Assembly (NCBI RefSeq): GCF_018736105.1
Contig: NZ_CP076135.1
Coordinates: forward strand, 1,858,001-1,922,000
Length of the DNA: 64,000 bases
Direction of reading: 5' to 3'
Source: Bradyrhizobium sediminis
Lineage (GTDB): Bacteria > Pseudomonadota > Alphaproteobacteria > Rhizobiales > Xanthobacteraceae
Shown: piece by piece, positions 49,573-64,000 of the stretch
Position numbering within the stretch: position 1 is the stretch's first letter
How the letters are laid out: each line of letters starts with the position of its first letter
Position numbers and translations under genes: made by a program
Notes under the pieces: generated by a model
Told to the model about the DNA's origin: nothing
What the model saw: the letters and a program-made list of their open reading frames with translations, nothing else
The model's database searches: none

Positions 49573-50316
49573 ATGACGCGTGACTTTTCGGCCGGCAATT
49601 ACCGGTTCATTCCGGCGGTATTTCAATATTCCAGCGGCGCCGCCGCCAACCTCGGCTATGAAGTCGAGCGGGTGCGCTTCGACAAGATGCCGCCGCTGGC
49701 CGAAGGCTTTGCGCTGATCAGGAAATATATCGAGGCCGCGGGAAGGCCGCTGACGTCGTTCTGCGCCTGCGAGTTGCGCTCGCCGGCGGCGTTTACCGAA
49801 GACGGCTTCCTGAAATTCAACCAGCACTACGTCAAGACGCTGGCCGAGTGGGGCCTGTTCGACGGGTCGACCAATCCGGTGGCGCGCAGCAATGTCTGCC
49901 CGGAAATCGATCCGCCGGCCGAGCCGTCATTCTATGCCTTCTCCTTCACGCGCCCGAGCAACACAACCACGCCGACCTTCGTCATCGCCGGCGGCGCCGA
50001 ATCGCGCGACGGGCCCGGAACCTATTCCGAACGCACCGTGCGCTACCGCGACCTCAGCCCGGAGGGCTTGAAGGAAAAGGTCCGCTTCACCGTGGGATCG
50101 ATGGAAAGCCGTCTCGCCGCCTTCGGGTTCGGCTGGAAGGACACCACTGCCGCGCAGGCCTACACCGTGCACGACTTCCATCCTGTCATCGCCGACGAAC
50201 TGGTCCGCCGCGGCGTGATGCGGTCCGGCTTGATCTGGCACTTTGCCCGGCCGCCGGTGGTCGACCTCGAATACGAGATGGATTGCCGCCGCGTGATGCG
50301 GGAACTCGTGATCTAG
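49573..50316 (+). CDS. Protein resembling 2-amino-5-chloromuconate deaminase CnbZ
   Basis: 247 residues with YRFIPAVFQYSSGAAA at the N-terminus, FCACELRSPAAFTEDGF in the middle, and VHDFHPVIADELVRRG near the C-terminus. I recall this pattern from proteins named after CnbZ, a deaminase of aminomuconates, but I cannot compare directly. If right it would release ammonia from an aminomuconate or similar. No aromatic-ring-cleavage genes are adjacent, so the name may be misleading. ATG 49573 follows gggggcgg. Confidence 0.65.
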   Translation: MTRDFSAGNYRFIPAVFQYSSGAAANLGYEVERVRFDKMPPLAEGFALIRKYIEAAGRPLTSFCACELRSPAAFTEDGFLKFNQHYVKTLAEWGLFDGSTNPVARSNVCPEIDPPAEPSFYAFSFTRPSNTTTPTFVIAGGAESRDGPGTYSERTVRYRDLSPEGLKEKVRFTVGSMESRLAAFGFGWKDTTAAQAYTVHDFHPVIADELVRRGVMRSGLIWHFARPPVVDLEYEMDCRRVMRELVI

Positions 50317-50430: not shown

Positions 50431-51318
50431 TCAGCGCTCGCGCGGGTCGAGGGCGTCGCGCAGGCCGTCGCCGACCAGGTTGAACGACAGCACCACGAGA
50501 AAGATCGCAAGTCCCGGCCACAGCGCCATCCACGGCGCGCCGGTCAGGAAGCGCTGCGCCGCGTTCAGCATGCTGCCCCAGGACGGCGAGGGCGGTTGCT
50601 GGCCGAGGCCCAGGAACGACAGCGCCGCCTCGGCGATGATGGCGGCGGCGATCGACAGGGTTGCCTGCACCAGCAGCGCCGGCATGATGTTCGGCAGGAT
50701 ATGGAACAGCGCGATCCGCCAGCGCGGATTGCCGATGGCCCGCGCAGCCTCGACATAGTCCTCGACCTTGACGCTTATCACCTGGCCGCGCGTCAGCCGC
50801 ACGAAGATCGGCGTCGCGGAGATGCCGATCGCGATCATGGCGTTGCCGAGACTCGGGCCGAGAAACGCCGCCAGCGCAATGGCGAGGATCAGGAACGGGC
50901 AGGCCAGCATGGCGTCGGTGATCCGGCTGATCAGCCCATCGATGAAGCCGCCGCGATAACCCGACAGTAGCCCGAAGGGAACACCGATGCCAAGCGCGAT
51001 GCCGACCGAGATCGCGCCGGCCAGCAGCGAAGCCCGTGCGCCATAGATCACTCGGGCCAGAATATCGCGGCCGAGGTCGTCGGTGCCGAACCAGTGCTGC
51101 GCCGATGGGGCTTTGCGCACGGCCGTCCAGCTGGTCGCGATCGGATCATAGGGCACGATCCATGGCGCAAACAGCGCCAGCACGATGAAGGCCGCGATCA
51201 CGGCGAGCCCGACCACCGCGCCCTTGCGCTGGAACAGTCGCCGCAACGCGCGCCGCGACGGACTTTCCAGCTCGTCGGAGGCGGCAACAGGGAGGGCGGC
51301 GAGCGCTGCGTCGGTCAT
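50431..51318 (-). CDS. Peptide ABC transporter permease (DppC-like), set 2
   Basis: 295 residues from ATG 51318. The cytoplasmic N-terminus leads to about six membrane segments; the DppC landmark GTDDLGRDILARVIYGARAS (about residues 92-111) and the EAA loop EAARAIGNPRWRIALFHILP are clear. Last gene of the 12-gene peptide operon, 5 bases after its DppB partner. It belongs to the second transporter set with genes at 51324-55920. Confidence 0.9.
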   Translation of the reverse strand: MTDAALAALPVAASDELESPSRRALRRLFQRKGAVVGLAVIAAFIVLALFAPWIVPYDPIATSWTAVRKAPSAQHWFGTDDLGRDILARVIYGARASLLAGAISVGIALGIGVPFGLLSGYRGGFIDGLISRITDAMLACPFLILAIALAAFLGPSLGNAMIAIGISATPIFVRLTRGQVISVKVEDYVEAARAIGNPRWRIALFHILPNIMPALLVQATLSIAAAIIAEAALSFLGLGQQPPSPSWGSMLNAAQRFLTGAPWMALWPGLAIFLVVLSFNLVGDGLRDALDPRER

Positions 51319-51323
51319 GTGGC

Positions 51324-52265
51324 CTACGCCCTCAGTCGCGGGTTGACGAGGATATAGGCGATGTCGGCGATCAGGTTCAGCGTGATGTAGATGGTCGCCG
51401 TCACCAGCACGACGCCCTGCACCACGGCATAATCGCGGTTGAACACGGCATCGACGATCAGCTTGCCGAAGCCCGGAATCGAGAAAATCTGTTCGGTCAG
51501 CACCGCGCCCGACAGCAGGGTACCGAGTTCCAGCGCGCCTAGCGTGATCACCGGCGTCAGCGCGTTTCGCATCGCATGCTTGAGGATCACCGAGCGTTCG
51601 AACAGGCCCTTGGCGCGGGCGGTGCGGACATAGTCGCTTTCCAGCACCTGCAGCATGGCGCTCCGGGTGTGCCGCATCAGGATCGCGGCGATGGCGTTGC
51701 CGAGCACGAAGGCCGGCATGATGGTCGAGGCGAGGCTGGCGCGCCAGTTTTCGGAGAGCGGCACATAGCCCGAGGCCGGCAGCCAGCCGAGCTCGATCGA
51801 GAACAGGAAAATCAGCATGATGCCGAGCCAGAAATTCGGCGTCGAGATGCCCCACAGCGCGAACAGGTTGGCGCCGTAGTCCCAGGCCGTGCCCTTCTTC
51901 ACCGCCGATACGATCCCGGCGGGAATCCCGATCAGAAACGCAATCACGATCGCCATCGAAGCCAGCTGCAGCGTCACCGGCAGCTTCTGCGCGATGAGGT
52001 CGCGTACCGGTACCTTGATGCGGAGCGACTCGCCGAAGTCGCCCGACAGCACGCCCTTGACCCAGTAGACATATTGCACCGGGACCGGCTGATCGAGCCG
52101 GTACTGCGCGCGGATCTGCGCGATCACGTTAGGATCGCGCTCTTCGCCAGCCATCACCAGCGCCGGATCCCCCGGCAGCAATTGCTGCAGCGAGAAGATC
52201 AGGACCGACACGAAGAATAGCGTCGGGATCAGCTGCAGAATGCGTTTGCCGAGGAAGTTCAGCAT
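51324..52265 (-). CDS. Peptide ABC transporter permease (DppB-like), set 2
   Basis: 313 residues. It starts MLNFLGKRILQLIPTLFFVS, the DppB pattern, with the EAA loop VRTARAKGLFERSVILKHAM (about residues 212-231) and a C-terminal LIADIAYILVNPRLRA. It forms the channel with DppC. It follows the binding-protein gene by 28 bases. Confidence 0.9.
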   Translation of the reverse strand: MLNFLGKRILQLIPTLFFVSVLIFSLQQLLPGDPALVMAGEERDPNVIAQIRAQYRLDQPVPVQYVYWVKGVLSGDFGESLRIKVPVRDLIAQKLPVTLQLASMAIVIAFLIGIPAGIVSAVKKGTAWDYGANLFALWGISTPNFWLGIMLIFLFSIELGWLPASGYVPLSENWRASLASTIMPAFVLGNAIAAILMRHTRSAMLQVLESDYVRTARAKGLFERSVILKHAMRNALTPVITLGALELGTLLSGAVLTEQIFSIPGFGKLIVDAVFNRDYAVVQGVVLVTATIYITLNLIADIAYILVNPRLRA

Positions 52266-52293
52266 GGGCTTTGTTTTCCGGGCGCGGTTGCTC

Positions 52294-53805
52294 TCACTTC
52301 AGCTTCAGCCCGATCACGCGCACCAGACCGTCCGGCATCTGCTTGTAGCCCTCAAGCTTGGTGGTATGCGCGATCAATATCCTGCGGTGATAGATATAAA
52401 GCAGCGGCTTTTCGTCGAGCGCGAGTTTTGCCAGCTTTTCATAGATTACCTTGCGCTGGGCCTGATCGGTGACGAGCCGGGCATCGTCGAGCGCCTTGTC
52501 GGCATCGGGGCTTGACCAGGCACTGTAGTTCTGCGGCGCTCCGGTCCTCAGGAAGACGTAGGAATTGCCGTCCGGATCGATCCGCCCGCTCCACGCCAGC
52601 ATGAAGGCCTGGTATTCGCCGGCCTCGGCCTGCTTCAGCGAGGTCGCGAATTCGGTGACCCTGATCTTCATGTCGAAGCCGGCTTCCGCCGCCATCGACT
52701 GGATCACCTGCGCGACAGCTTCGGTTTCGGCGCCCTTCGGCACCATGAAATCGACGGGGATCGGCACGGCGACGCCGGCTTCCTTGATCAGCGCCTTGGC
52801 CTTGGCGATGTCGCGGGGCTGGACCGGAAAAGCCTTCTGATAATAGGGATGATCCGGATTGACCCACTGGTTGCCGGGTTTGAACTCGCCGTTGAACACG
52901 ACCTGGTTGATCGCCTCGCGATCGATCGAGAGGTCTAGTGCCTGGCGCACCTTGGCGGATTGGCTGAGCGGCCCCTTGGCCTTGTCCTTGCCGATGTTCA
53001 GCGTCACGCCCTGATAGCCGAGCTCGATCGCGGTCGACAGCTTCAGCCTGGGGTCCGCCTGCACCTCCTTGAGGTCGGTGGCCAGCAGGCGTTCGATCAG
53101 GTCGAGACCGCCGGACTTGAGGTTGGCGAGGCGGACCGTGGCATCGACCAGCGGCAGATAGACGATGCGGTCGATGAAGACCTTGTCCTTGTTCCAGTAG
53201 TCGGCGAACTTCTCGAACACGATGCGGTCCTGTTGCACGCGTTCGACGAATCTGTAGGGACCGCTGCAGACTGGCTTCAATCCGAACTTGTCGCCGGCTT
53301 CCCTGGCCGCCTTGGGCGACACCATCATTCCGGCGCGATCGGTAAGTTGCGCGATCAACGGCGAGAACGGCGCCTTCAGCACAAGCTTGATGGTGAGGGG
53401 ATCGACGACGTCGACATGGTCGAGTGCGGCGAGTTCCGGTTTGCGGAACGAGCCCTGCATTGTCAGGTGGCGGTCGAGCGAGAATTTTGCCGCCTCGGCA
53501 TTGAACGGCTCACCATCGTGGAATTTGACGCCCGGCCGCAGTTTGATCGTGACTTCCTTGCCATCGGCGGAAGTCTCGTGGGACAGCGCGAGCTGGGGCA
53601 CGATGTTGATCTTCTCGTCGATGTCGAACAGCTTGTCGCAGAATGAGGCGAACACGATGCGGCCGACATAGGTCCGCGCCAGTGTCGGATCGAGAATATC
53701 GGGATCCTCGGCCAGCCCGATGCGCAGCGTGGTCTGGGCCTGGGCACCAGCCGCCAACGATAGCAACAGCGCCGCCGAGGCGGCCGCCAAACGCAGGATT
53801 TTCAT
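52294..53805 (-). CDS. Peptide/solute-binding protein, SBP family 5, set 2
   Basis: 503 residues from ATG 53805, with ggag nine bases upstream; two earlier starts are less likely. Signal peptide ends GAQAQTTLR. Mature part has LRIGLAEDPDILDPT and KLRPGVKFHDGEPFNAEA, landmarks of DppA/OppA/GsiB-type proteins. It binds oligopeptides, or other solutes such as glutathione, in the periplasm. Here it sits after the ATPases rather than first in the set. Confidence 0.9.
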   Translation of the reverse strand: MKILRLAAASAALLLSLAAGAQAQTTLRIGLAEDPDILDPTLARTYVGRIVFASFCDKLFDIDEKINIVPQLALSHETSADGKEVTIKLRPGVKFHDGEPFNAEAAKFSLDRHLTMQGSFRKPELAALDHVDVVDPLTIKLVLKAPFSPLIAQLTDRAGMMVSPKAAREAGDKFGLKPVCSGPYRFVERVQQDRIVFEKFADYWNKDKVFIDRIVYLPLVDATVRLANLKSGGLDLIERLLATDLKEVQADPRLKLSTAIELGYQGVTLNIGKDKAKGPLSQSAKVRQALDLSIDREAINQVVFNGEFKPGNQWVNPDHPYYQKAFPVQPRDIAKAKALIKEAGVAVPIPVDFMVPKGAETEAVAQVIQSMAAEAGFDMKIRVTEFATSLKQAEAGEYQAFMLAWSGRIDPDGNSYVFLRTGAPQNYSAWSSPDADKALDDARLVTDQAQRKVIYEKLAKLALDEKPLLYIYHRRILIAHTTKLEGYKQMPDGLVRVIGLKLK

Positions 53806-53830
53806 CGCACTGATCTCCATGTTCACGAAC

Positions 53831-54934
53831 TCAATCGGCCGGCGGCGCGGCCCCGACTATACCAACCCCGCGGACGCCTGCACCTTCCGTGCCGCCGCTG
53901 AACGCCGCCACCAATCGTTCCAGCGCCGGCGAAAACCCGCCGTCGGCGGGAACCACGGCGTCGGCCGGCGGCAGTTCCGCGGTGCGGTGGCAGGCGGTGA
54001 AGTGGCCGTCGCCGAGCAGTTGCGGTCGCTCGACCCGGCAACGTTCGACCACATGGGGACAGCGGGTGTGGAAGCGGCAGCCCGAGGGCGGATTGAGCGC
54101 GCTCGGCATTTCGCCCTGCAGCAGAATGCGGCTGCGCTTGGCCCGCGGTTTGGGCACCGGGATCGCCGACAAAAGCGCCCGGCTGTAGGGGTGGCGGGGC
54201 CCCGCGAACAGCGCCTGCGCCTCCGCGGTCTCGACGATCACGCCGAGATTCATCACGGCGACACGGTCGGCGATGTGCTTGACCACCGCCAGGTCGTGGG
54301 AAACGAAGATATAGGCGAGGCCGAGCCGGTCCTGCAGGTCGCGGAGCAAATTGAGGATTTGCGAGCGGATCGAGACATCCAGCGCCGAAACCGGCTCGTC
54401 GCAGATGATCAGTTTGGGTTCAACCGCCAGCGCCCGCGCGATCGCGATGCGCTGGCGCTGGCCGCCGGAAAATTCGTGGGGGTAGCGGCGGGCGAAGCGC
54501 GGCTCCAGTCCCACCAGCCGCAGCAATTCCTCGACCCGTTCGCGGCGGCGCGCTGGTGGCACCAGATCATGCAGCGCCAGCGGCTCGGTCAGGATCTGGC
54601 TGACGGTCATGCGCGGATTGAGCGACGCGTAGGGGTCCTGGAAGATGATCTGCGCATCCTTGCGGAAGGCGCGCAACTGGTTGGCGTCCAGCGCGAGCAG
54701 GTCGCGGCCCTCGAAGCGGATGCTGCCGGCATCCGGCTCGATCAGCCGCAACACCAGCCGGCTCACGGTGGACTTGCCGCAACCGGATTCGCCGACCAGT
54801 GCCAGCGTCTTGCCGGCCTCGACGCTGAAGCTGACACCGTCGACGGCCTTGATGTAGGCGGTCGGCCGCCCGAGCAGCGACCGATCGGCGACGAAGTATC
54901 TTGCGAGATTTTCGACCTCGAGCAGGGCGGTCAT
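53831..54934 (-). CDS. Peptide ABC transporter ATPase (DppF-like), set 2
   Basis: 367 residues from ATG 54934. Walker [10 protein letters not shown], signature [14 protein letters not shown], Walker [13 protein letters not shown] and the C-terminal oligopeptide-transporter extension with Cys cluster ([15 protein letters not shown]). DppF type because of the [15 protein letters not shown] segment. The start overlaps the DppD stop as ATGA (4 bases). Confidence 0.92.
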
Positions 54935-55920
54935 GACACCAGCCCCTCCAGCGGCGTCCGGATGCAGCGCGACCAGTGCGAGGGGGTGACCGCGACCATT
55001 GGCGGCGGCGCGGCGGTGCAGGCTTCGCGGACGAACGGACACCGCGCAGAGAAGCGGCAGCCGGTCGGCAGCGCGCTCATGTTCGGAACCATACCCTCGA
55101 TGGTGGCGAGATGCGAGGCGCGGCGGTCGAGCCGCGGGATCGAGCCAAGCAGGCCGACGGTGTAGGGATGCTGCGGATTGCCGAACAATTCATCGACCGG
55201 TGCGCGCTCGACGATCTCGCCGGCATACATGACAGCGACTTCGTCGCAGACTTCGGCGACCACGCCGAGATCGTGGGTGATCAGGATGATCGCAGCCCCG
55301 CTCGCCGCCTTCAACTCCCGCATCAGGTCGAGGATCTGCGCCTGCAGGGTGACGTCGAGCGCGGTGGTCGGCTCGTCGGCGATCAGGAGTCGGGGATCGC
55401 AGGCCAGTGCCATCGCGATCATGACGCGCTGGCGCATGCCGCCGGAAAGCTTGTGCGGATATTCGTCGATGCGCCGCTCCGGCGAGGGGATGTGCACCCG
55501 GCGCAGCAGCTCGATGGCGCGCTCCCGTGCCGCGCGCCGCGATCCGCCGCGATGACGAAGGATGGTCTCCATGATCTGGTCGCCGATGGTGAAGCTCGGA
55601 TTGAGCGAGGTCATCGGCTCCTGAAAAATCATCGCGAGGCGATTGCCGCGCAGGTCGCGCAGGGTCTGATCGGGCACGTCGAGCAGATCGAAGCCGTCGA
55701 AGCGGATCGAGCCCGACACCTCGGCCGAGTGCTTCGACAGCAGCCCCATGATGGCGAGCGAGGTGACGCTCTTGCCGCAGCCGGATTCTCCGACCAGGCC
55801 GAGCGTTGCGCCATTGGCGACGCTAAGGTCGACGCGGTCGACCGCGTGGGTGATGCGGCCGCCGTCGCCATGGAAGATGACCCGCAGGTCCTTGATCTCG
55901 ATCAGCGGGCCATCGGTCAT
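54931..55920 (-). CDS. Peptide ABC transporter ATPase (DppD-like), set 2
   Basis: 329 residues. Walker [12 protein letters not shown], DppD-type [19 protein letters not shown], signature [16 protein letters not shown], Walker [13 protein letters not shown] and the Cys motif [15 protein letters not shown]. It pairs with the DppF downstream (overlap 4 bases) and its start overlaps the DUF1028 gene by 4 bases. Translation of these genes is thus coupled. Confidence 0.92.
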
Positions 55921-56627
55921 TTCTGGCTCGCGATGGCTGCTTCGATCCCGGCGTCGATGGTTGCGCGATCGGTGATCCCGGCGGGATTGCCGCGGGTCGG
56001 AAGGAACGGGCGGAAATGCACCCAGCGCTCGCGGCTGACCGCCTCCAGGCGAGCGAGTTCGGCGAGCGGATCGGCATGGTCGTCGACGCGCAGGTCGAGT
56101 GCGGACCATTCTTCCTCGCCGTGGATCAGAAGCGCTGCCGATTGCCTGCCGCGCTTGTCGCCGCCCGCAGCTTCGCCGGATCGCATCGCCGCGATCAGGC
56201 GTTGCGCGAACGGCAGGTCTCTGCCCGCGAGATAAGCCTGCGCGGTGTCGTCCAGCACGCTTGAGCCCGCCAGCATGTTGCCGGCAATCGAAAAACCGTC
56301 GCCCTCGATGTGCCCGCACCAGTCGACGCATTCGCTTCCCGTATGCGAGGCAATGCGGCCCTTCGCATCCATGATGTGGAGCTGCCGGCTCTCGAATCCG
56401 CTATCGCCGGCAATCAGGGTGTCGACGACATCGCGCGGCGAGCGTCCCTCGCGCAGCAACCTCACACCGTCGATGCCGAAATAGGGATTGACCAGCGCCT
56501 GGGTTGCGACGCCGCCGATCCCGGCAGCGATATGCGGCACGAGCGCGCCGACCGCAAAGAATTTTGTCGCGACCGCGATGCCGAACTGGCCGGTGGCTTG
56601 GTCTCGGGCGATAATCGACCAGGTCAT
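55917..56627 (-). CDS. DUF1028 family protein (Ntn-hydrolase-like)
   Basis: 236 residues. The whole length fits DUF1028: it starts MTWSIIARDQATGQFGIAV, then FFAVGALVPHIAAGIGGVAT and ASHTGSECVDWCGHIEGDGF. The family is placed in the Ntn-hydrolase fold; a Thr or Ser after Met may be the nucleophile (here T2), but activity is not established in general. Its gene overlaps the set 2 DppD by 4 bases and is 7 bases after the GGT gene, so it is surely expressed with both. A role in cleaving the imported peptides is inferred. Confidence 0.87.
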   Translation of the reverse strand: MTWSIIARDQATGQFGIAVATKFFAVGALVPHIAAGIGGVATQALVNPYFGIDGVRLLREGRSPRDVVDTLIAGDSGFESRQLHIMDAKGRIASHTGSECVDWCGHIEGDGFSIAGNMLAGSSVLDDTAQAYLAGRDLPFAQRLIAAMRSGEAAGGDKRGRQSAALLIHGEEEWSALDLRVDDHADPLAELARLEAVSRERWVHFRPFLPTRGNPAGITDRATIDAGIEAAIASQK

Positions 56628-56634
56628 ATCGAGC

Positions 56635-58440
56635 TTACCGTCCGGCCGCGTAGCCCTGCATACCCCGGGGGTTGGCGGCAGCGCGGCGGCGGCGCCCGAC
56701 CTTCGAGGCGGCGGTGAGGCGGCCCTCCGACCAGTCGGGGCCGGTCTCCACGATATGGCCGCGGCTCTCCAGGATATCGATGGTCGATTTCGGCACGCGG
56801 TTCTCGACTACCAGCACGCCGGGCCGCGAGGTGCGCGGCCAGAACGAAATCGGGAAATGCTCGGAATGCCAGGCCGGCGCGTCGATCGCTTCCTGCAGGT
56901 TCATGTTGGCATGAACGTGCCGCAGGAAGAATTGCGTGGTCCACTGGTCCTGCTGATCGCCGCCGGGCGAGCCCCAGGCCATGTACGGCTCGCCGTCGCG
57001 CAAGCACATGGTGGGCGAGAGCGTGGTGCGCGGGCGCTTGCCCGGCGCCAATGCGGCCGGGTGATCTTCCTCGAGCCAGAACATCTGGGCACGGCTGCCG
57101 AGGCAGAAGCCGAGTTCGGGAACGACCGGCGACGACTGCAGCCAGCCGCCGGACGGCGTCGCCGAGATCATGTTGCCGGCCTGGTCGATGATGTCGAAAT
57201 GCACGGTGTCGCCGCGCACTTCGCCGAAGCGGCCGACGGTCGGCTCGCCCGCGCCCATGGCGCCGACCGCCTCGCGATGGCCTTCGGCACGGCGCAGCTT
57301 GACGACCGAACCAAAGCCTTCGACCGAGCCGGGAACGAAGTCGAGCGAGGCCTTGTCCCTCGAGATCAGCTTGCGGCGCTCGTCGTTATAGGCGTCCGAC
57401 AGCAGCGTGCTGATCGGGATTTCGCTGAAGTCCGGATCGCCGTAGAATTTCTCGCGGTCGGCAAAAGCCAGCTTGGCAGCTTCGACCTGCAGGTGGATGA
57501 ATTCCGGCCCTGCGGGATCGAGCCCGTCGAGTTCGAATCCCTTCAGCAGCGCGAGTTGCTGCAGCATCACCGGACCCTGGCTCCAGACGCCGGCCTTGCA
57601 GACGGTGTAGCGGCCATAGTCGTAGGTCAGCGGCGCTTCGACCGTTGCCTGCCAGCGCGCCATGTCGTCGGCGCGCAGGACGCCGCGATGCGGCGAGCCG
57701 CTGACGTCCATGATGTCCTGTGTGCGGCAGAATTTGTCGATCGCTTCGGCGACGAAGCCATGCGACCATGCCTTGCGCGCACGCTCGATCTGGGCGACGC
57801 GGTCGGAGCCGGCGCTTTCGGCCTCCTTCAGGATGCGGGCGTAGGTTTCCGAGAGCGTCTTGTTGGTGAAGAGCGTGCCGGGGACCGGCACTTCGTTGTT
57901 GGGCAGATAGACCGCGGCGGATGTGGTCCAATGCGTCCTGAACAATTGCTCGACCGTCTTGATCGTCGCCGACGCCCGCTCCACCAGCGGGTAGCCGTCA
58001 CGGGCATAGGCGATGGCGGGCTCCAGCACGTCGCGCAGCCGCAACGTGCCGTAATCACGCAGCAGCAGCATCCAGGATTCGAAGGTGCCGGGCACGCAGG
58101 CGGCCAAAAGACCGGTGCCGGGCACCATTTCGAGGCCTTCGCTGCGGTAATGCGCGATGGTGGCGCCGGCCGGGGCAGGACCCTGGCCGCAGATCACCTC
58201 GGTGCGGCCGCGCCTGGTATCGTGCACGATAACAGGAACGTCGCCGCCCGGACCGTTCAGATGCGGTTCCACCACCTGCAGCGTGAACGCGGTGGCGACG
58301 CCGGCGTCGAACGCGTTGCCGCCCTTCTCCAGCGTGGCCATCCCGACCGCAGTGGCGATCCAGTGGGTGGAGGTCACGACCCCGAACGTGCCTTCGATTT
58401 CCGGCCGGGTGGTGAAGGGATCGGGATTGATTTTGCTCAT
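56635..58440 (-). CDS. Gamma-glutamyltransferase-family Ntn-hydrolase
   Basis: 601 residues from ATG 58440 (MSKINPDPF; the open frame to 58485 has no extra homology). The processing and catalytic Thr is T412 in RGDTVHFDIID; PSGGWLQSSPVV and GKRPRTTLSPTM are family landmarks. No signal peptide is visible, unlike classical periplasmic GGT, so it probably works in the cytoplasm on imported substrate. It would cleave gamma-glutamyl or similar amide bonds. It lies between two full peptide transporters and next to another Ntn-hydrolase. Confidence 0.88.
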   Translation of the reverse strand: MSKINPDPFTTRPEIEGTFGVVTSTHWIATAVGMATLEKGGNAFDAGVATAFTLQVVEPHLNGPGGDVPVIVHDTRRGRTEVICGQGPAPAGATIAHYRSEGLEMVPGTGLLAACVPGTFESWMLLLRDYGTLRLRDVLEPAIAYARDGYPLVERASATIKTVEQLFRTHWTTSAAVYLPNNEVPVPGTLFTNKTLSETYARILKEAESAGSDRVAQIERARKAWSHGFVAEAIDKFCRTQDIMDVSGSPHRGVLRADDMARWQATVEAPLTYDYGRYTVCKAGVWSQGPVMLQQLALLKGFELDGLDPAGPEFIHLQVEAAKLAFADREKFYGDPDFSEIPISTLLSDAYNDERRKLISRDKASLDFVPGSVEGFGSVVKLRRAEGHREAVGAMGAGEPTVGRFGEVRGDTVHFDIIDQAGNMISATPSGGWLQSSPVVPELGFCLGSRAQMFWLEEDHPAALAPGKRPRTTLSPTMCLRDGEPYMAWGSPGGDQQDQWTTQFFLRHVHANMNLQEAIDAPAWHSEHFPISFWPRTSRPGVLVVENRVPKSTIDILESRGHIVETGPDWSEGRLTAASKVGRRRRAAANPRGMQGYAAGR

Positions 58441-58534
58441 GGGAACCTGTCGGCCGGGTTGGTATTTGGTACGCCACTTGACCACAGCCGGGCCTGCCTG
58501 CCAACCGGCACCAACGCAGTGCTGCCGCCCGCGA

Positions 58535-59536
58535 TTAGGCCGATACGGCGACGTCAGCCGGCTTGTTGACGGCGTGGCAGGCGACGCCGCCGATCAGCGC
58601 GGGGGCCTGTTTGCGGCAGAGATCGAACGCCAGCGGACAGCGCGGGTTGAAGGCGCAGCCGGGCGGCGGATCGATCGGGTTGGGGATTTCGCCCTGGACC
58701 GGAATGCGCTGGCGGCCGGACATCGCCAGATCCGGCACCGCGCCCAGCAGCATTCTGGTGTAGGGCATGCGCGGGTTGCTGAACAGTTCGCGGCCTTCCG
58801 CGATTTCGACGATGCGGCCGAGATACATCACGCCGATGCGGCTCGCCATGTGCCGGACCACGGCGAGGTTGTGGCTGATGAAGAGGTAGGTGAGGCCGAA
58901 TTTGTCCTGCAGGTCGCGCATCAGGTTGAGGATCTGCGCCTGCACGGAGACGTCGAGCGCGGAGGTCGGCTCGTCGCAGACGATGAATTCGGCCTCCGAC
59001 GCCAGTGCGCGCGCGATCGCGATCCGCTGCCGCTGCCCGCCGGAAAATTCGTGCGGATATTTCCAGCCATCGTCGGCGTGCAGGCCGACCAGACTTAACA
59101 ACTCGCCGACGCGCGCCTGGATATTGCGCTCGCCCTGGATCAGGTCGAAGGCGCGGATCGGCTCGGCGACGATGGCGTCGACCCGGAAACGCGGGTTCAG
59201 GCTGGCATATGGGTCCTGGAAGATCATCTGGATGCGCCGGCGCAGCTGCTGGCGCGCCTGCAATTGCCTGGCGTCGCTCATCGAGACGCCGTCGATGATC
59301 ACTTCACCGGAACTCGGCGACAGCAGCCCGACCACCATCCGGGCGACCGTGGTCTTGCCGGAGCCGGATTCGCCGACCAGGGCAAAAGTCTCGCCGCGCT
59401 TGATGTCGAAGGTCACACCGTCGACCGCCTTCAGGAATTCCAGCCGGCCGCCTTCGAGCACCCGGTTGAGCCATGGTTTCGAGACGTCGAAGGTGCGGCG
59501 CAGATTCCTGACATCGACGAAGGGCGCTGAGGTCAT
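58535..59536 (-). CDS. Peptide ABC transporter ATPase (DppF-like), set 1
   Basis: 333 residues. Walker [29 protein letters not shown], signature [15 protein letters not shown], Walker B FIVCDEPTSALD and the C-terminal Cys cluster GCAFNPRCPLAFDLC. Its start overlaps the DppD stop by 4 bases. A 94-base gap separates it from the GGT gene, the largest inside the operon apart from the gap after the set 1 binding protein. Confidence 0.92.
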   Translation of the reverse strand: MTSAPFVDVRNLRRTFDVSKPWLNRVLEGGRLEFLKAVDGVTFDIKRGETFALVGESGSGKTTVARMVVGLLSPSSGEVIIDGVSMSDARQLQARQQLRRRIQMIFQDPYASLNPRFRVDAIVAEPIRAFDLIQGERNIQARVGELLSLVGLHADDGWKYPHEFSGGQRQRIAIARALASEAEFIVCDEPTSALDVSVQAQILNLMRDLQDKFGLTYLFISHNLAVVRHMASRIGVMYLGRIVEIAEGRELFSNPRMPYTRMLLGAVPDLAMSGRQRIPVQGEIPNPIDPPPGCAFNPRCPLAFDLCRKQAPALIGGVACHAVNKPADVAVSA

Positions 59537-60519
59537 GCCGCGGAATCCTTCGCGGCGGCGTCGTAGAGATGGCAGGCCACGGCCTGCGTGCCGTGCTTGA
59601 TCGGTTCCGGCCGCTCGATCCGGCAGCGATCGAACGCGAACGCGCAGCGCGGGTTGAACGAGCAGCCCGCCGGGATCGCCGACAGCCGCGGCATCGAGCC
59701 GGGGATCTGCACCAGCCGCTTGTCTTCGCCCGCGAGCGTCGGGATCGCGCCCATCAGGCCCTTGGCGTAGGGATGCAGCGGGTTCTGCACGACATCGCGC
59801 ACCGGACCGATCTCGGCGACGCGGCCGGAATACATTACCGCGACGCGGTCGGAGGTTTCGGCGATCACGCCCATGTCGTGGGTCACCAGCATCACCGCGG
59901 TGCCGTGGTCGCGGCCGAGGCGTTTGATCAGGGAGATGATCTGGGCCTGCACCGAGACGTCGAGCGCCGTGGTCGGCTCGTCGGCGATGATCAGTTCCGG
60001 TTCGGCGCAGATCGCCAGCGCAATCACCACGCGCTGGCGCATGCCGCCGGAAAATTCGTGCGGATAGGCATCGATGCGTTTTTCCGGGGCGGGAATGCCG
60101 ACCTCGGCCAACAGGTCGATGGCGCGCTTGCGCGCGGCCTGTTCCGACAGGTTGGTATGGGTCCTGATGGTCTCGACGATCTGGTCGCCGATCCGGTACA
60201 GCGGGTTGAGGCTGGTGAGGGGGTCCTGAAAGATCATGCCGATCCGCTTGCCGCGGATCCGGCGCATTTCTTCCGGCGGCAGGTTGTCGATCCGCATGCC
60301 CGACAGATAGATCTCGCCGCCACTGATGCGGCCGGGAGGATCGATCAGGCCGATCACCGCAAGACCGGTGACGGATTTTCCGGCGCCGGATTCGCCGACC
60401 ACGCCCAGCACCTCGCCCTTGGCGATGTCGAACGACACCCCGTCGATGGCGCGCAACGTGCTGCGGCGGGTGACGAATTCCACCTGAAGGTTACGCACGG
60501 AGAGAACGGGTTCGGTCAT
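59533..60519 (-). CDS. Peptide ABC transporter ATPase (DppD-like), set 1
   Basis: 328 residues. Walker A GESGAGKSVTG, MIFQDPLTSLNPLYRIGDQI, signature [14 protein letters not shown], Walker [13 protein letters not shown], Cys motif GCSFNPRCAFAFDRC. It pairs with DppF at 58535-59536 and sits 31 bases after the permease gene. The two DppD proteins in the window differ clearly in sequence, so the sets are not a recent duplication. Confidence 0.92.
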   Translation of the reverse strand: MTEPVLSVRNLQVEFVTRRSTLRAIDGVSFDIAKGEVLGVVGESGAGKSVTGLAVIGLIDPPGRISGGEIYLSGMRIDNLPPEEMRRIRGKRIGMIFQDPLTSLNPLYRIGDQIVETIRTHTNLSEQAARKRAIDLLAEVGIPAPEKRIDAYPHEFSGGMRQRVVIALAICAEPELIIADEPTTALDVSVQAQIISLIKRLGRDHGTAVMLVTHDMGVIAETSDRVAVMYSGRVAEIGPVRDVVQNPLHPYAKGLMGAIPTLAGEDKRLVQIPGSMPRLSAIPAGCSFNPRCAFAFDRCRIERPEPIKHGTQAVACHLYDAAAKDSAA

Positions 60520-60550
60520 GGAAACGAATGCGTGGGTGTTGCCGCGCCAA

Positions 60551-61522
60551 TCATCGGAGTTTCGGATTGAGCGCGTCGCGCAGCCAGTCGCCCAGCAGGT
60601 TGATCGAGAGGATCAGCGACGCCAGCGCGAGACCCGGAAAGGCCACGATCCACCATTCGCCGGCAAACAGATAATTGTTGCCGATCCGGATCAGGGTGCC
60701 GAGCGAGGGCATGGTGTCGGGCATGCCGGCGCCCAGAAACGACAACGTCGCCTCGGTGATCACGGCGAGCGCGAGGTTGATGGTGGCGATCACCAGGATC
60801 GGTCCCATCGCGTTGGGCAGCACGTGGCGCAGCATGATCACGGGCGCGGGCAGCCCGATCAGCTGCGCCGCTGCGACGTAATCCTTGTTCTTCTCCACCA
60901 TCACCGAGCCGCGCACGGTGCGCGCATATTGCACCCAGAAGCTCAGTCCGATCGCGAATACCAATACCGCCAGCGTGCTCATGGCGTCGAGGCGATTGCC
61001 GAACACCGATTTGACGACGCCGTTGATCAGGAGCGCGATCAGGATCGCCGGGAAGGTGAGCTGCACATCCGCGATCCGCATGATCAGGCCGTCGACGGCG
61101 CCGCCGACATAGCCGGCGATCAGTCCGAGGACGATGCCGAGCGTGCCGGAGAACAGCACGCCGAGAATCCCGACCGTGAGCGAAATGCGCAGGCCGTAGA
61201 GAATGGCGGAGAACACGTCGCGGCCCTGTTCGTCGGTACCGAGCAGGAACGGGCTTTGGCCGTCCGCGGTCCACAGCGGCGAAATCCGCGAATTCATCAG
61301 TTGAAGCTGTGCCGGGTCGAACGGGTTCTGCACGGCCAGCAGCGGCGCCAGGATCGCCAGCAGGAAGAACAGCACGGTGACGGCGGCCGCCACCATCGTC
61401 ATCCTGGAACGCCGGAACGAATAGAACACGTCGCTTTCGAGGGCGCGTCGAAGCCATCCGCTGCCGGAATGCGAGCGCGGAGCGCTCGGTTCGGCCTGGT
61501 GCGGGATGACGGCGTCGGACAT
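60551..61522 (-). CDS. Peptide ABC transporter permease (DppC-like), set 1
   Basis: 323 residues with a longer N-terminal cytoplasmic part and about six membrane segments. LLGTDEQGRDVFSAILYGLR and the EAA loop YVAAAQLIGLPAPVIMLRHV are DppC landmarks. It lies 13 bases after its DppB partner. The last residues RDALNPKLR match the family end. Confidence 0.9.
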   Translation of the reverse strand: MSDAVIPHQAEPSAPRSHSGSGWLRRALESDVFYSFRRSRMTMVAAAVTVLFFLLAILAPLLAVQNPFDPAQLQLMNSRISPLWTADGQSPFLLGTDEQGRDVFSAILYGLRISLTVGILGVLFSGTLGIVLGLIAGYVGGAVDGLIMRIADVQLTFPAILIALLINGVVKSVFGNRLDAMSTLAVLVFAIGLSFWVQYARTVRGSVMVEKNKDYVAAAQLIGLPAPVIMLRHVLPNAMGPILVIATINLALAVITEATLSFLGAGMPDTMPSLGTLIRIGNNYLFAGEWWIVAFPGLALASLILSINLLGDWLRDALNPKLR

Positions 61523-61535
61523 CGGGGGATCTCGT

Positions 61536-62516
61536 TCAGGCCGGACGGCTGATGGTGGAGCGCAGCCGCGGATCGACGACCGTGTAGAGAATATCCACCA
61601 CCAGATTGATGGTGACGAAGATCAGGGACACCATCAGCAAATACGCGGCCATGATCGGGATGTCGACGTTCTGCACCGCTTGCACGAACAACAGTCCCAT
61701 GCCCGGCCACTGGAATACGGTTTCGGTAATGATCGCAAAAGCAATTACCGAGCCAAATTGCAGGCCGGCGACGGTGATCACGGGCACCAGCGTGTTCTTC
61801 AGCGCGTGCCCGAAATGGATCGCCCGCGTCGTCAGCCCTCGCGCCCGCGCAAAGCGGATGTAGTCGGTACGCAGCACCTCGAGCATTTCAGCCCGCACCA
61901 GCCGCATGATCAATGTCATCTGGAACAGGCCGAGCGTGACCGAAGGCATGATCAGGGCCTTGAGGCCGGACACCGTGAGCAGGCCGGTGGTCCACCAGCC
62001 GATCCGCACCACGTCGCCGCGGCCGAACGACGGCAGCCAGCCCAGCACCACGGCGAACAGATAGATCAGGAGGATGCCGATCAGGAAGGTCGGCAGCGAG
62101 ATTCCGATCAGCGACACCGCCTGGAATATCTTGGCCAGGAACGTGTCGCGTTTCAGCGCCGAATAGACTCCCATCAGGATGCCGAACACCATCGCGAAAA
62201 TGGTGGCGCAGATAGCGAGTTCCAGCGTCGCCGGCATCCGCTCTTTCAGCAGGCTCGCGACCGGCTGGCGAAACTGATAGGAGACGCCGAATTTGAACTG
62301 CGCGGCGTTGGCGAAATAGCGGGCGAACTGCAGCGGCACCGGATCGTCGAGCCCGAGCGACTTTCGCACGGCCGCGCGTTCGGCGGCCGGCGTATCCAGC
62401 GAGACGATCTGGTTGACCGGATCGCCCGCGAACCGGAACATCGAGAACGAGATGATCCCGACCGCGATCATGACGCCGATGGCCTGGATGGCGCGACGAA
62501 GAGTGAAAGCGAGCAT
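61536..62516 (-). CDS. Peptide ABC transporter permease (DppB-like), set 1
   Basis: 326 residues. It starts MLAFTLRRAIQAIGVMIAVG; the EAA loop is IRFARARGLTTRAIHFGHAL (about residues 219-238) and the C-terminus VVDILYTVVDPRLR matches DppB. It comes 100 bases after the binding-protein gene of its set. Confidence 0.9.
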   Translation of the reverse strand: MLAFTLRRAIQAIGVMIAVGIISFSMFRFAGDPVNQIVSLDTPAAERAAVRKSLGLDDPVPLQFARYFANAAQFKFGVSYQFRQPVASLLKERMPATLELAICATIFAMVFGILMGVYSALKRDTFLAKIFQAVSLIGISLPTFLIGILLIYLFAVVLGWLPSFGRGDVVRIGWWTTGLLTVSGLKALIMPSVTLGLFQMTLIMRLVRAEMLEVLRTDYIRFARARGLTTRAIHFGHALKNTLVPVITVAGLQFGSVIAFAIITETVFQWPGMGLLFVQAVQNVDIPIMAAYLLMVSLIFVTINLVVDILYTVVDPRLRSTISRPA

Positions 62517-62616
62517 GTGATCCTTTCACTTCTGTTCTGATGTGGACGTCGCTGTCGGGCGGAAACGAAAAGTCCCGGGAGCGTGAAGCCACCGGGACCT
62601 GGATGCTGCGACCGAC

Positions 62617-64000
62617 TTATTCCTGTTTGGTCATCCAGTAGGGCAGAACCGCGTTGTCGGCGCGCTGCACCACCTTGAGCTTTTTCGATACGCCCCATGC
62701 CAGCGCCTGCTGGTGCAGCGGGATATAGCCGAAATCCTTGGCCATGATCTCGAACGCCTGCTTGATCAGCTGATCGCGTTTGGTCGTATCCGATTCAACC
62801 AGCACCTTGTCGGCGAGCTCATCAAGCGTCTTGTTGCAGTAGCCGCCGAGATTGGCGTTACCGCGCGAGGATTTCGGATTGCCGCGGCAGCCCATGATGT
62901 CGTAGAGCACGTTGTGGGCGTCGGAGGTGCCGGGAGTCCAGCCGAGCAAATAGAACGAGGTCTGGTAACCGCCGGCTTCCAGGACCTTGGCGAAATACTG
63001 CGCCTTGGGCTGCGCCAGCAAGTTGATCTTGACGCCGATGCGGGCCATCATGCCGACGATTGCCTGGCAGATCGCGGCGTCATTGACGTAGCGGTCGTTG
63101 GGGCAATCCATCGTGACTTCGAAACCGTCGGGATAGCCGGCCTCCGTCAGCAGCTTCTTGGCGCCGTCGGGATCAAATTTCGGACGGGTGAAGTCGCCCG
63201 ACAGCTTGAACAGTTGCGGTGCGATCATCAGCGCGGACGGCGTCGACAGGCCGCGCATCACGCGGGTCTTGATCAGCTCGACGTCCACTGCCTTGAAGAA
63301 CGCTTCGCGGACGCGGACATCCTTGAACGGGTTCTTGCCCTTGACGTTGGAATACAGCAGTTCGTCGCGGGTCTGGTCCATGCCGAGGAAGATGGTGCGC
63401 AACTCGGGGCCCTTCAGTACCTGGGCGTTCGCACTGGAGTCGACGCGGGCGATATCCTGGGTCGGAACCGGCTCGATGATGTCCACCTCGCCCGAGAGCA
63501 GCGCCGCCACACGCGTGGCGTCGGAGCCGATCGGCGTGAAGATGATCTCCTTGAGATTGTGCTGCGGCTTCTGCCACCAGTTCGGGTTGGCCTTGAACAC
63601 CGTCTTGACGCCGGGCTGGTGGCTTTCGATGGTGAAGGCGCCGGTGCCGTTGGCGTTGAGCGAGGCAAAACTCGGCGAGGTCGCGGCGGCCGGCGTCGGG
63701 GCTACCGCGTTGTTCGCCTCGGCCCATTTCTTGTCCATGATGTACCAGGTATCCCACTGCGAATGCAGAATGGGATTGGGCGACGTCAGGATGAAGTCCA
63801 CAGTGTAGTCATCGACCTTGACTACCTTGGCGTCCGCCGCAATGCGGGTTTGCAGGTTCGAGCCCTTGGCGCGAACGCGGTCGGCCGAGAACACCACGTC
63901 GTCGGCGGTGAGGGGATCGCCGTTCTGGAATTTGACGTTCTTGCGCAGGTGGAAGCGCCAGCGGGTCGGTTCCGGGGTTTCCCAGCTTTCGGCAAGCCCG
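62617..64000 (-). CDS. Peptide/solute-binding protein, SBP family 5, set 1, 5' truncated
   Basis: 460 residues are visible; the frame runs past the right edge without a stop, so the signal peptide and N-terminal lobe are outside the window. The visible start WRFHLRKNVKFQNGDPLTAD is the typical SBP_bac_5 segment near residue 80-100. The GTG at 63897 is internal, not a real start. It is the first visible gene of the set 1 transporter and probably of the whole operon. Ligand unknown; peptides are likely from context. Confidence 0.88.
   Translation of the reverse strand, partial: GLAESWETPEPTRWRFHLRKNVKFQNGDPLTADDVVFSADRVRAKGSNLQTRIAADAKVVKVDDYTVDFILTSPNPILHSQWDTWYIMDKKWAEANNAVAPTPAAATSPSFASLNANGTGAFTIESHQPGVKTVFKANPNWWQKPQHNLKEIIFTPIGSDATRVAALLSGEVDIIEPVPTQDIARVDSSANAQVLKGPELRTIFLGMDQTRDELLYSNVKGKNPFKDVRVREAFFKAVDVELIKTRVMRGLSTPSALMIAPQLFKLSGDFTRPKFDPDGAKKLLTEAGYPDGFEVTMDCPNDRYVNDAAICQAIVGMMARIGVKINLLAQPKAQYFAKVLEAGGYQTSFYLLGWTPGTSDAHNVLYDIMGCRGNPKSSRGNANLGGYCNKTLDELADKVLVESDTTKRDQLIKQAFEIMAKDFGYIPLHQQALAWGVSKKLKVVQRADNAVLPYWMTKQE

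Follow-up and report, generated by a model that had tools for sequence, protein, structure and literature searches.

Predicted coupling of peptide-family importers to two unusual Ntn hydrolases in a conserved gene array of Bradyrhizobium sediminis

The glutathione importer GsiABCD of Escherichia coli is a peptide-family ATP-binding cassette (ABC) importer that is encoded with the N-terminal nucleophile (Ntn) hydrolase IaaA. IaaA and Taspase-1 both belong to the asparaginase-type group. LmbA2991 was described as having subunits of 420 and 197 residues, the small one beginning with TCHLDVVDRW, and as cleaving a C-C bond, likely via an oxalyl-Thr intermediate; its intrinsic role was called unclear (PMC5519988). 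Gamma-glutamyl activity was reported to be absent from LmbA and Ant6 (PMC6085292). SPO2555 (PDB 2imh), a DUF1028 type protein, was described as uncharacterised and without peer-reviewed data (PMC9140057). In a 2025 paper, dgcN was reported to be key to a racemisation pathway for acidic D-amino acids and their amides (PMC12363236). A literature search found no papers on DUF1028/PF06267, on 6J3A/6J3I, or on a dipeptide ABC transporter with a gamma-glutamyltranspeptidase in Bradyrhizobium. The window, which is the whole 64,000-base stretch of Bradyrhizobium sediminis DNA that was analysed (C1:1858001-1922000 of the 5.45 Mb genome), carries twelve minus-strand genes in the order SBP1-B1-C1-D1-F1-GGT-DUF1028-D2-F2-SBP2-B2-C2, all present as the initial annotation had listed them. 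SBP denotes a solute-binding protein, B and C permeases, and D and F ATPases, each of transporter 1 or transporter 2; GGT is a gamma-glutamyltransferase-family gene, and its product is called the GGT homologue below. The array is read here, with a probability of about 0.6, as the importer transporter 2 serving two cytoplasmic Ntn hydrolases that act on an amide other than a gamma-L-glutamyl one, with transporter 1 added in Bradyrhizobium as a separate peptide importer attached upstream.

The order of the array is conserved beyond chance within the genus. A gene-order survey, which had been suggested as a check, took in the main DUF1028 copy and its surroundings at 12 Bradyrhizobium loci (L034-L042, L071, L072, L073; such labels, like L003 and L158, denote fetched genome stretches, G000 being the window genome). 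All twelve genes occur in the same order in 11 of these loci (L034-L042, L071, L072). L073 holds ten array genes and lacks D2-F2, with 76 bases separating DUF1028 from SBP2. PF06267 matches occur in 65 of 71 other genus genomes, some of which may hold only a second-type copy. That second, less similar DUF1028 copy was found at seven genus loci (L051, L052, L053, L059, L060, L069, L070), with no GGT homologue and no array. Close database proteins bear Bradyrhizobium names, for example at 88% for DUF1028 and 94% for GGT. Intergenic gaps from SBP1 to C2 are, in order, 100, 13, 31, -4, 94, 7, -4, -4, 25, 28 and 5 bases, the widest being SBP1-B1 (100 bases) and F1-GGT (94 bases). The 4-base overlaps are three in number (D1/F1, DUF1028/D2 and D2/F2), one fewer than had been counted in the initial annotation. 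The starts adopted are ATG 58440 for GGT and ATG 51318 for C2. SBP1 is truncated by the window end and extends 215 bases further, to window-equivalent position 64215 (L003:2617-4215, L003 spanning SBP1 past that end).

The domains of Dpp/Opp importers (SBP_bac_5, BPD_transp_1, oligo_HPY) were detected by Pfam across SBP1, B1, SBP2, B2, C2, D2 and F2, while C1, D1 and F1 were assigned through NCBIfam Opp/Dpp-type models with scores below the curated cut-offs; the NCBIfam scan took in all array genes except SBP1 and B1. Identity between transporters 1 and 2 is 25% for SBP, 36% for B, 38-39% for C, 50% for D and 51% for F. Duplication of a single transporter was rejected on the 25% identity of SBP1 and SBP2 and their placement in separate clades, in agreement with the earlier proposal of two distinct ones. 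The closest relative of transporter 1 found outside the genus (L336, 67-77% identity) adjoins an M20 peptidase, and the 12 kb fetched there contain neither GGT nor DUF1028 beside it. This relative, the 94-base gap upstream of GGT, and the presence of the transporter 2 core without transporter 1 outside the genus would all suit two adjacent independent operons with unrelated substrates, transporter 1 alone and GGT-DUF1028-transporter 2. The F1-GGT junction, however, is retained in all 12 genus loci, and a simple scan of the gap found no minus-strand terminator-like match; the absence of D2-F2 from L073 would be tolerable if one ATPase pair were shared. The same scan gave no promoter-like match (2.2 expected) and one terminator-like match on the plus strand (58444-58460). 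Two operons of this kind are a possible arrangement that we hold to be unlikely, and the array would form a single transcript.

The GGT homologue scores 280.4 bits with the gamma-glutamyltransferase equivalog TIGR00066, below the cut-off of 357.85. Its nearest PDB chains are 6j3a (E 4e-196) and 6j3i (2e-195), the next protein following at 1e-53, and identity to 6j3a is 57-58% over the length. The 6j3a chain has 617 residues, with TCHLDVVDRW at the aligned Thr, and since the subunit lengths and the small-subunit N-terminal peptide given in PMC5519988 fit, 6j3a and 6j3i are taken to be LmbA2991 of Streptomyces lincolnensis. D411-T412 aligns with the GDT motif of 6j3a, so that the Asp-Thr autoproteolysis pair is kept, and by alignment the homologue lacks the N-terminal leader of E. 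coli GGT. Compared with that enzyme it has Q86 for R114, G432 for N411, R450 for Q430, M453 for D433 and T472-T473 for S462-S463; its Thr412 aligns with T391, the start of the small subunit. Homologues at E <= 1e-120 are present in 53 of 289 genomes of the class, the window's included, and 54 of the 56 orthologue places outside the window genome were fetched, two partial ones being left out. In these 54 orthologues Thr412, R450 and T473 are invariant, while Q86 is found in 53, G432 in 51 and M453 in 50. The window genome has five further GGT-family places (L158, L159, L160, L161, L163/L164), of which L158 is a canonical-looking GGT that keeps R, T, D, S and S at the gamma-Glu positions; the residue comparison among these paralogues leaves out L159 and L163. 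At L154 two GGT-family genes are adjacent, one of them merely 28% identical to the window's.

The initial annotation had proposed glutathione or gamma-glutamyl chemistry for the array, in which case the GGT homologue would be a true gamma-glutamyl hydrolase scavenging such peptides. It does belong to PF01019, and the best NCBIfam match of SBP2 is GsiB, at 198.6 bits, although this is far below the equivalog cut-off of 594. Both transporters have separate D and F genes in place of a fused GsiA-type ATPase, F2 and D2 scoring 343 and 285 bits with the GsiA model against a cut-off of 1077. The residues at the Arg114 and Asp433 positions were reported to contact the alpha-carboxylate and alpha-amino group of the donor, and the R114L and R114D variants of E. 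coli GGT to have no detectable activity; on the other hand, 85% of the activity is left in Bacillus GGT R109S and 82% of the hydrolytic activity in E. coli D433N (PMC8062742), so that the residue argument is not absolute given these active variants. The sub-cut-off TIGR00066 score, the conserved replacement of R114, D433, S462 and S463, the closeness to 6j3a/6j3i and the canonical GGT at L158 together speak against the assignment, which is considered very improbable. Of the uptake-and-cleavage system proposed with it, the conserved array, the two Ntn-type enzymes and the two transporters are supported, while the gamma-glutamyl substrate is not; isopeptides are possible substrates. A further alternative is that the GGT homologue forms an oxalyl-Thr intermediate as LmbA does, its natural substrate being either an amide with an N-oxalyl group or an amino acid that bears oxalyl, of plant or soil origin. 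Its identity to the putative LmbA2991 structure, with the C-C cleavage and likely oxalyl-Thr reported for that protein, would be consistent with this. None of the twelve genes, however, is oxalate-handling by Pfam and NCBIfam scans (Pfam only for SBP1 and B1), and the lincomycin-pathway reaction of LmbA2991 may itself be accidental, since the intrinsic role was called unclear (PMC5519988). Oxalyl chemistry in the array is accordingly rated as a slight chance.

The DUF1028 protein matches PF06267 at 250.2 bits (gathering threshold 26.2). Its structure model, built on 35 rows that are 64-92% identical to the window protein, has an Ntn fold in which Thr takes the place of the nucleophile, and matches 2imh, Taspase-1, HslV and proteasome chains, Taspase-1 being the nearest fold outside its own family. 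Several alignments to proteasome beta chains and HslV start with residue 2 of the model against residue 1. Thr2 is present in all 75 distinct DUF1028 sequences compared (residue 1 was fixed as M in this comparison, so that the evidence counts from Thr2 onward), and at 87 of 95 DUF1028 loci, including that of the window, the Thr codon directly follows a start codon. Thr2 is predicted to be the nucleophile after removal of the initiator Met.

Outside the genus, the GGT homologue, DUF1028 and transporter 2 recur together in part. The same GGT type was found at three of 21 DUF1028 loci from other families (L043, L044, L064) and a GGT of a different clade at L048; at L064 the GGT-type gene is cut by the contig end and the importer lies outside the SBP2 clade. 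Twenty further DUF1028 loci gave the same GGT type at three (L276-L278) and the other clade at L279. DUF1028 copies outside the genus that are at least 50% identical to the window's have a GGT-family neighbour at 8 of 9 loci (6 LmbA-type, 2 of the other clade), the exception being a split copy with no such neighbour at L287; for copies below 50% identity the count is 0 of 39 loci, the seven second-type genus loci included. In other alphaproteobacterial families the GGT homologue stands with transporter-2-type genes including D2/F2-type ATPases at L043, L105, L106, L129, L131, L133, L148, L276 and L278, and with SBP2-B2-C2 lacking such a D2-F2 pair at L044 and L277; less similar Dpp-type sets are near it at three of the 54 orthologue loci. 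A scan with an LmbA2991-led alignment gave 577 confirmed hits, of which the best 80 actinobacterial loci were compared; a clade-mate of SBP2 is near GGT at 9 of these 80 (Micromonospora, Amycolatopsis, Streptomyces). SBP2 falls in a 25-row clade (support 100/99) made up solely of GGT-near binding proteins and excluding the 14 other binding proteins of the window genome in the tree. Over 18 linked loci, the distances of SBP2 correlate with those of GGT (r 0.885, a value reached in 0 of 5000 permutations; r 0.92 in alphaproteobacteria alone, n=14). At L278 transporter 2, GGT and DUF1028 are accompanied by an amidase (PF01425, 11106-12749) and a second importer, and at L279 two importers flank DUF1028 and a GGT of the other clade. 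A two-importer arrangement has thus originated on more than one occasion, the binding proteins differing from those of the array.

Several observations weigh against the proposed importer-hydrolase system. The link between GGT, DUF1028 and transporter 2 is not obligatory: DUF1028 is near the GGT homologue in only 6 of the 54 orthologue loci outside the genus, an SBP2-like transporter (at least 48% identity) in only 6 of the 54, and no DUF1028 was detected in the best 80 of 577 actinobacterial loci. On the two DUF1028 counts, an obligate partnership of DUF1028 with the GGT homologue was rejected. An unbiased search of the 289 class genomes gave 34 SBP2-like places, only 7 of them beside a GGT place, and so the SBP2 clade of solely GGT-linked proteins partly reflects sampling; SBP2 as an exclusive marker of GGT-linked loci, which the tree had suggested, was rejected on this count. 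One more SBP2-like place (L334) adjoins DUF1028. Several GGT-near binding proteins fall outside the SBP2 clade, as does SBP1, and transporter-2-linked genes split into several separate groups in the GGT tree. The correlation of SBP2 and GGT distances could stem from shared species history. Regarding DUF1028, the codon preceding the Thr is a non-start codon at 8 of the 95 loci, where simple Met removal is impossible for that reason, and only two of five structure models have a predicted local distance difference test score (pLDDT) above 70.

A different substrate is suggested by the neighbours of the orthologues. Clusters that recur in the 54 loci, each named from a single representative, include a DUF1611 protein (12 loci) as well as proteins of the N-formylglutamate-amidohydrolase type and of the enolase type (10 loci each). 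The DUF1611 and enolase-type representatives exceed the NCBIfam cut-offs for DgcN and DgcA; the amidohydrolase is below that for HutG. Among the 289 class genomes, 35 encode the GGT homologue together with DgcN, 18 the GGT homologue only, 36 DgcN only and 200 neither, which places dgcN in 35 of the 53 genomes that possess the GGT-like gene and in 36 of the 236 that do not (odds ratio 10.8, a raw value uncorrected for phylogeny and genome size). In 12 of the 35 genomes with both, the two genes are no more than 6 kb apart. The GGT-like family may act on small amides, for example peptides of the murein or gamma-D-glutamyl type, and free from them D-glutamate, a different acidic D-amino acid or the amide of such an amino acid, with transporter 2 and DUF1028 supplying and finishing the substrate; an N-substituted residue would fit with the loss of the Asp that pairs with a free alpha-amino group. 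The window genome, however, has no DgcN (no match to PF07755, and none to NF041892 at E 1e-60), and none of the six transporter-2-linked orthologue loci is among the 12 dgcN-adjacent ones. For these two reasons the dgcN link is taken as a family-level clue only, and D-glutamate release as the task of the window's array is doubtful. More speculative still is an import-and-release system for acidic D-amino acid amides (e.g. gamma-D-glutamyl or murein-type peptides) with a core spanning Alphaproteobacteria and Actinobacteria, which would give LmbA2991-type enzymes a natural, non-antibiotic role and DUF1028 its first function. Also recurrent near the GGT homologue are a MATE-type protein cluster (8 of 54 loci; L149 10880-12208) and a TRAP transporter protein cluster (7 of 54; L157 10636-12828). 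Neighbours in Streptomyces were considered as a substrate clue; two downstream gene clusters (57 and 53 of the best 80 of 577 loci) are unannotated and gave none.

Under the proposed importer-hydrolase system, transporter 2 (SBP2-B2-C2-D2-F2) would bring a small peptide-like or amide-like compound into the cytoplasm. The leaderless GGT homologue would activate itself by cutting between D411 and T412 and attack through Thr412, and in the likewise leaderless DUF1028 protein loss of the initiator Met would leave Thr2 as the nucleophile. Both enzymes would act on the imported compound in the cytoplasm, the bond cut being probably an amide other than gamma-L-glutamyl, and transporter 1 would widen the intake in Bradyrhizobium. 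One gene set bears on two questions, the own role of LmbA2991 and the function of DUF1028, and the conserved importer beside both enzymes offers a ligand-first route, in which the ligand of SBP2 is found and then offered to both. The array also points to misnaming of many Bradyrhizobium and Streptomyces genes that are called gamma-glutamyltransferase.

Table 1. Features of the array, with window positions, strand and basis of assignment, and the loci in which the GGT homologue is near dgcN.
Feature	Position	Strand	Basis or remarks
SBP1, solute-binding protein, transporter 1, 532 aa	62617..64000, on to window-equivalent 64215	-	PF00496 (SBP_bac_5) 289 bits on L003:2620-4215; 72% relative in L336
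B1, permease, transporter 1	61536..62516	-	PF00528 (BPD_transp_1) 132 bits
C1, permease, transporter 1	60551..61522	-	NCBIfam Opp4C 250 bits, below cut-off 350
D1, ATPase, transporter 1	59533..60519	-	NCBIfam PRK11022 353 bits, below cut-off 541
F1, ATPase, transporter 1	58535..59536	-	NCBIfam PRK11308 364 bits, below cut-off 408
F1-GGT gap, 94 bases	58441..58534	-	75-97 bases in 11 genus loci, 151 in L073
GGT-family Ntn hydrolase, LmbA2991-type, 601 aa, predicted D411/T412 autocleavage	56635..58440	-	PF01019 401 bits; PDB 6j3a E 4e-196; residue comparison
DUF1028 protein, 236 aa, Ntn fold, predicted nucleophile Thr2	55917..56627	-	PF06267 250 bits; Thr2 invariant; model matches 2imh, Taspase-1, HslV, proteasome chains
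D2, ATPase, transporter 2	54931..55920	-	ABC_tran and oligo_HPY
F2, ATPase, transporter 2	53831..54934	-	ABC_tran and oligo_HPY; PRK11308 425 bits, above cut-off 408
SBP2, solute-binding protein, transporter 2	52294..53805	-	PF00496 288 bits; same clade as alphaproteobacterial and actinobacterial SBPs next to GGT
B2, permease, transporter 2	51324..52265	-	PF00528 130 bits
C2, permease, transporter 2	50431..51318	-	PF00528 and OppC_N
dgcN-adjacent loci (GGT homologue <=6 kb)			L108, L114, L115, L116, L118, L128, L134, L135, L136, L142, L146, L156

Beyond the array, a plus-strand gene at 49573-50316 encodes a 247-aa protein, convergent with the array end and without a Pfam match, that has a counterpart of 78-80% identity at the corresponding site of 11 among the 12 genus loci. 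On the other side, a flavin adenine dinucleotide (FAD)-dependent oxidoreductase (PF01266, L003:4417-5670, plus strand, divergent from SBP1) was considered as a D-amino-acid clue and rejected, being beside the array in only 2 of the 12 genus loci (L036, L039). Further out, L003:9623-12892 (plus strand) contains a 1089-aa open frame that resembles a fused cytochrome P450-reductase, as judged from the letters alone.

Among described systems, the DgcN-DgcA pathway of D-glutamate is linked through orthologues of the GGT homologue, which in 12 alphaproteobacterial genomes stand no more than 6 kb from dgcN, and differs in that neither DgcN model found a match in the window genome. SPO2555, which belongs to Pfam DUF1028 and is the sole member of its SCOPe Ntn subfamily, is about one third identical to the DUF1028 protein of the window. 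LmbA2991, as putatively represented by 6j3a/6j3i, and LmbA/Ant6-type homologues share with the GGT homologue the high identity over the length, the Asp-Thr pair and matching replacements of the gamma-Glu residues; LmbA and Ant6 are antibiotic-pathway enzymes that act on a pyrroline side chain, whereas the GGT homologue stands in a peptide-importer array. With GsiABCD and IaaA the array shares the pairing of peptide-family ABC importer genes with an Ntn hydrolase gene, and the nearest outside fold of the DUF1028 protein, Taspase-1, is of the group of IaaA. Unlike GsiABCD/IaaA, it has two importers, unfused ATPases, DUF1028 in place of IaaA, an additional LmbA-type enzyme and a sub-cut-off GsiB score. 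The array would belong to a known kind of system, a peptide importer with coupled Ntn hydrolases, and its enzymes are unusual.

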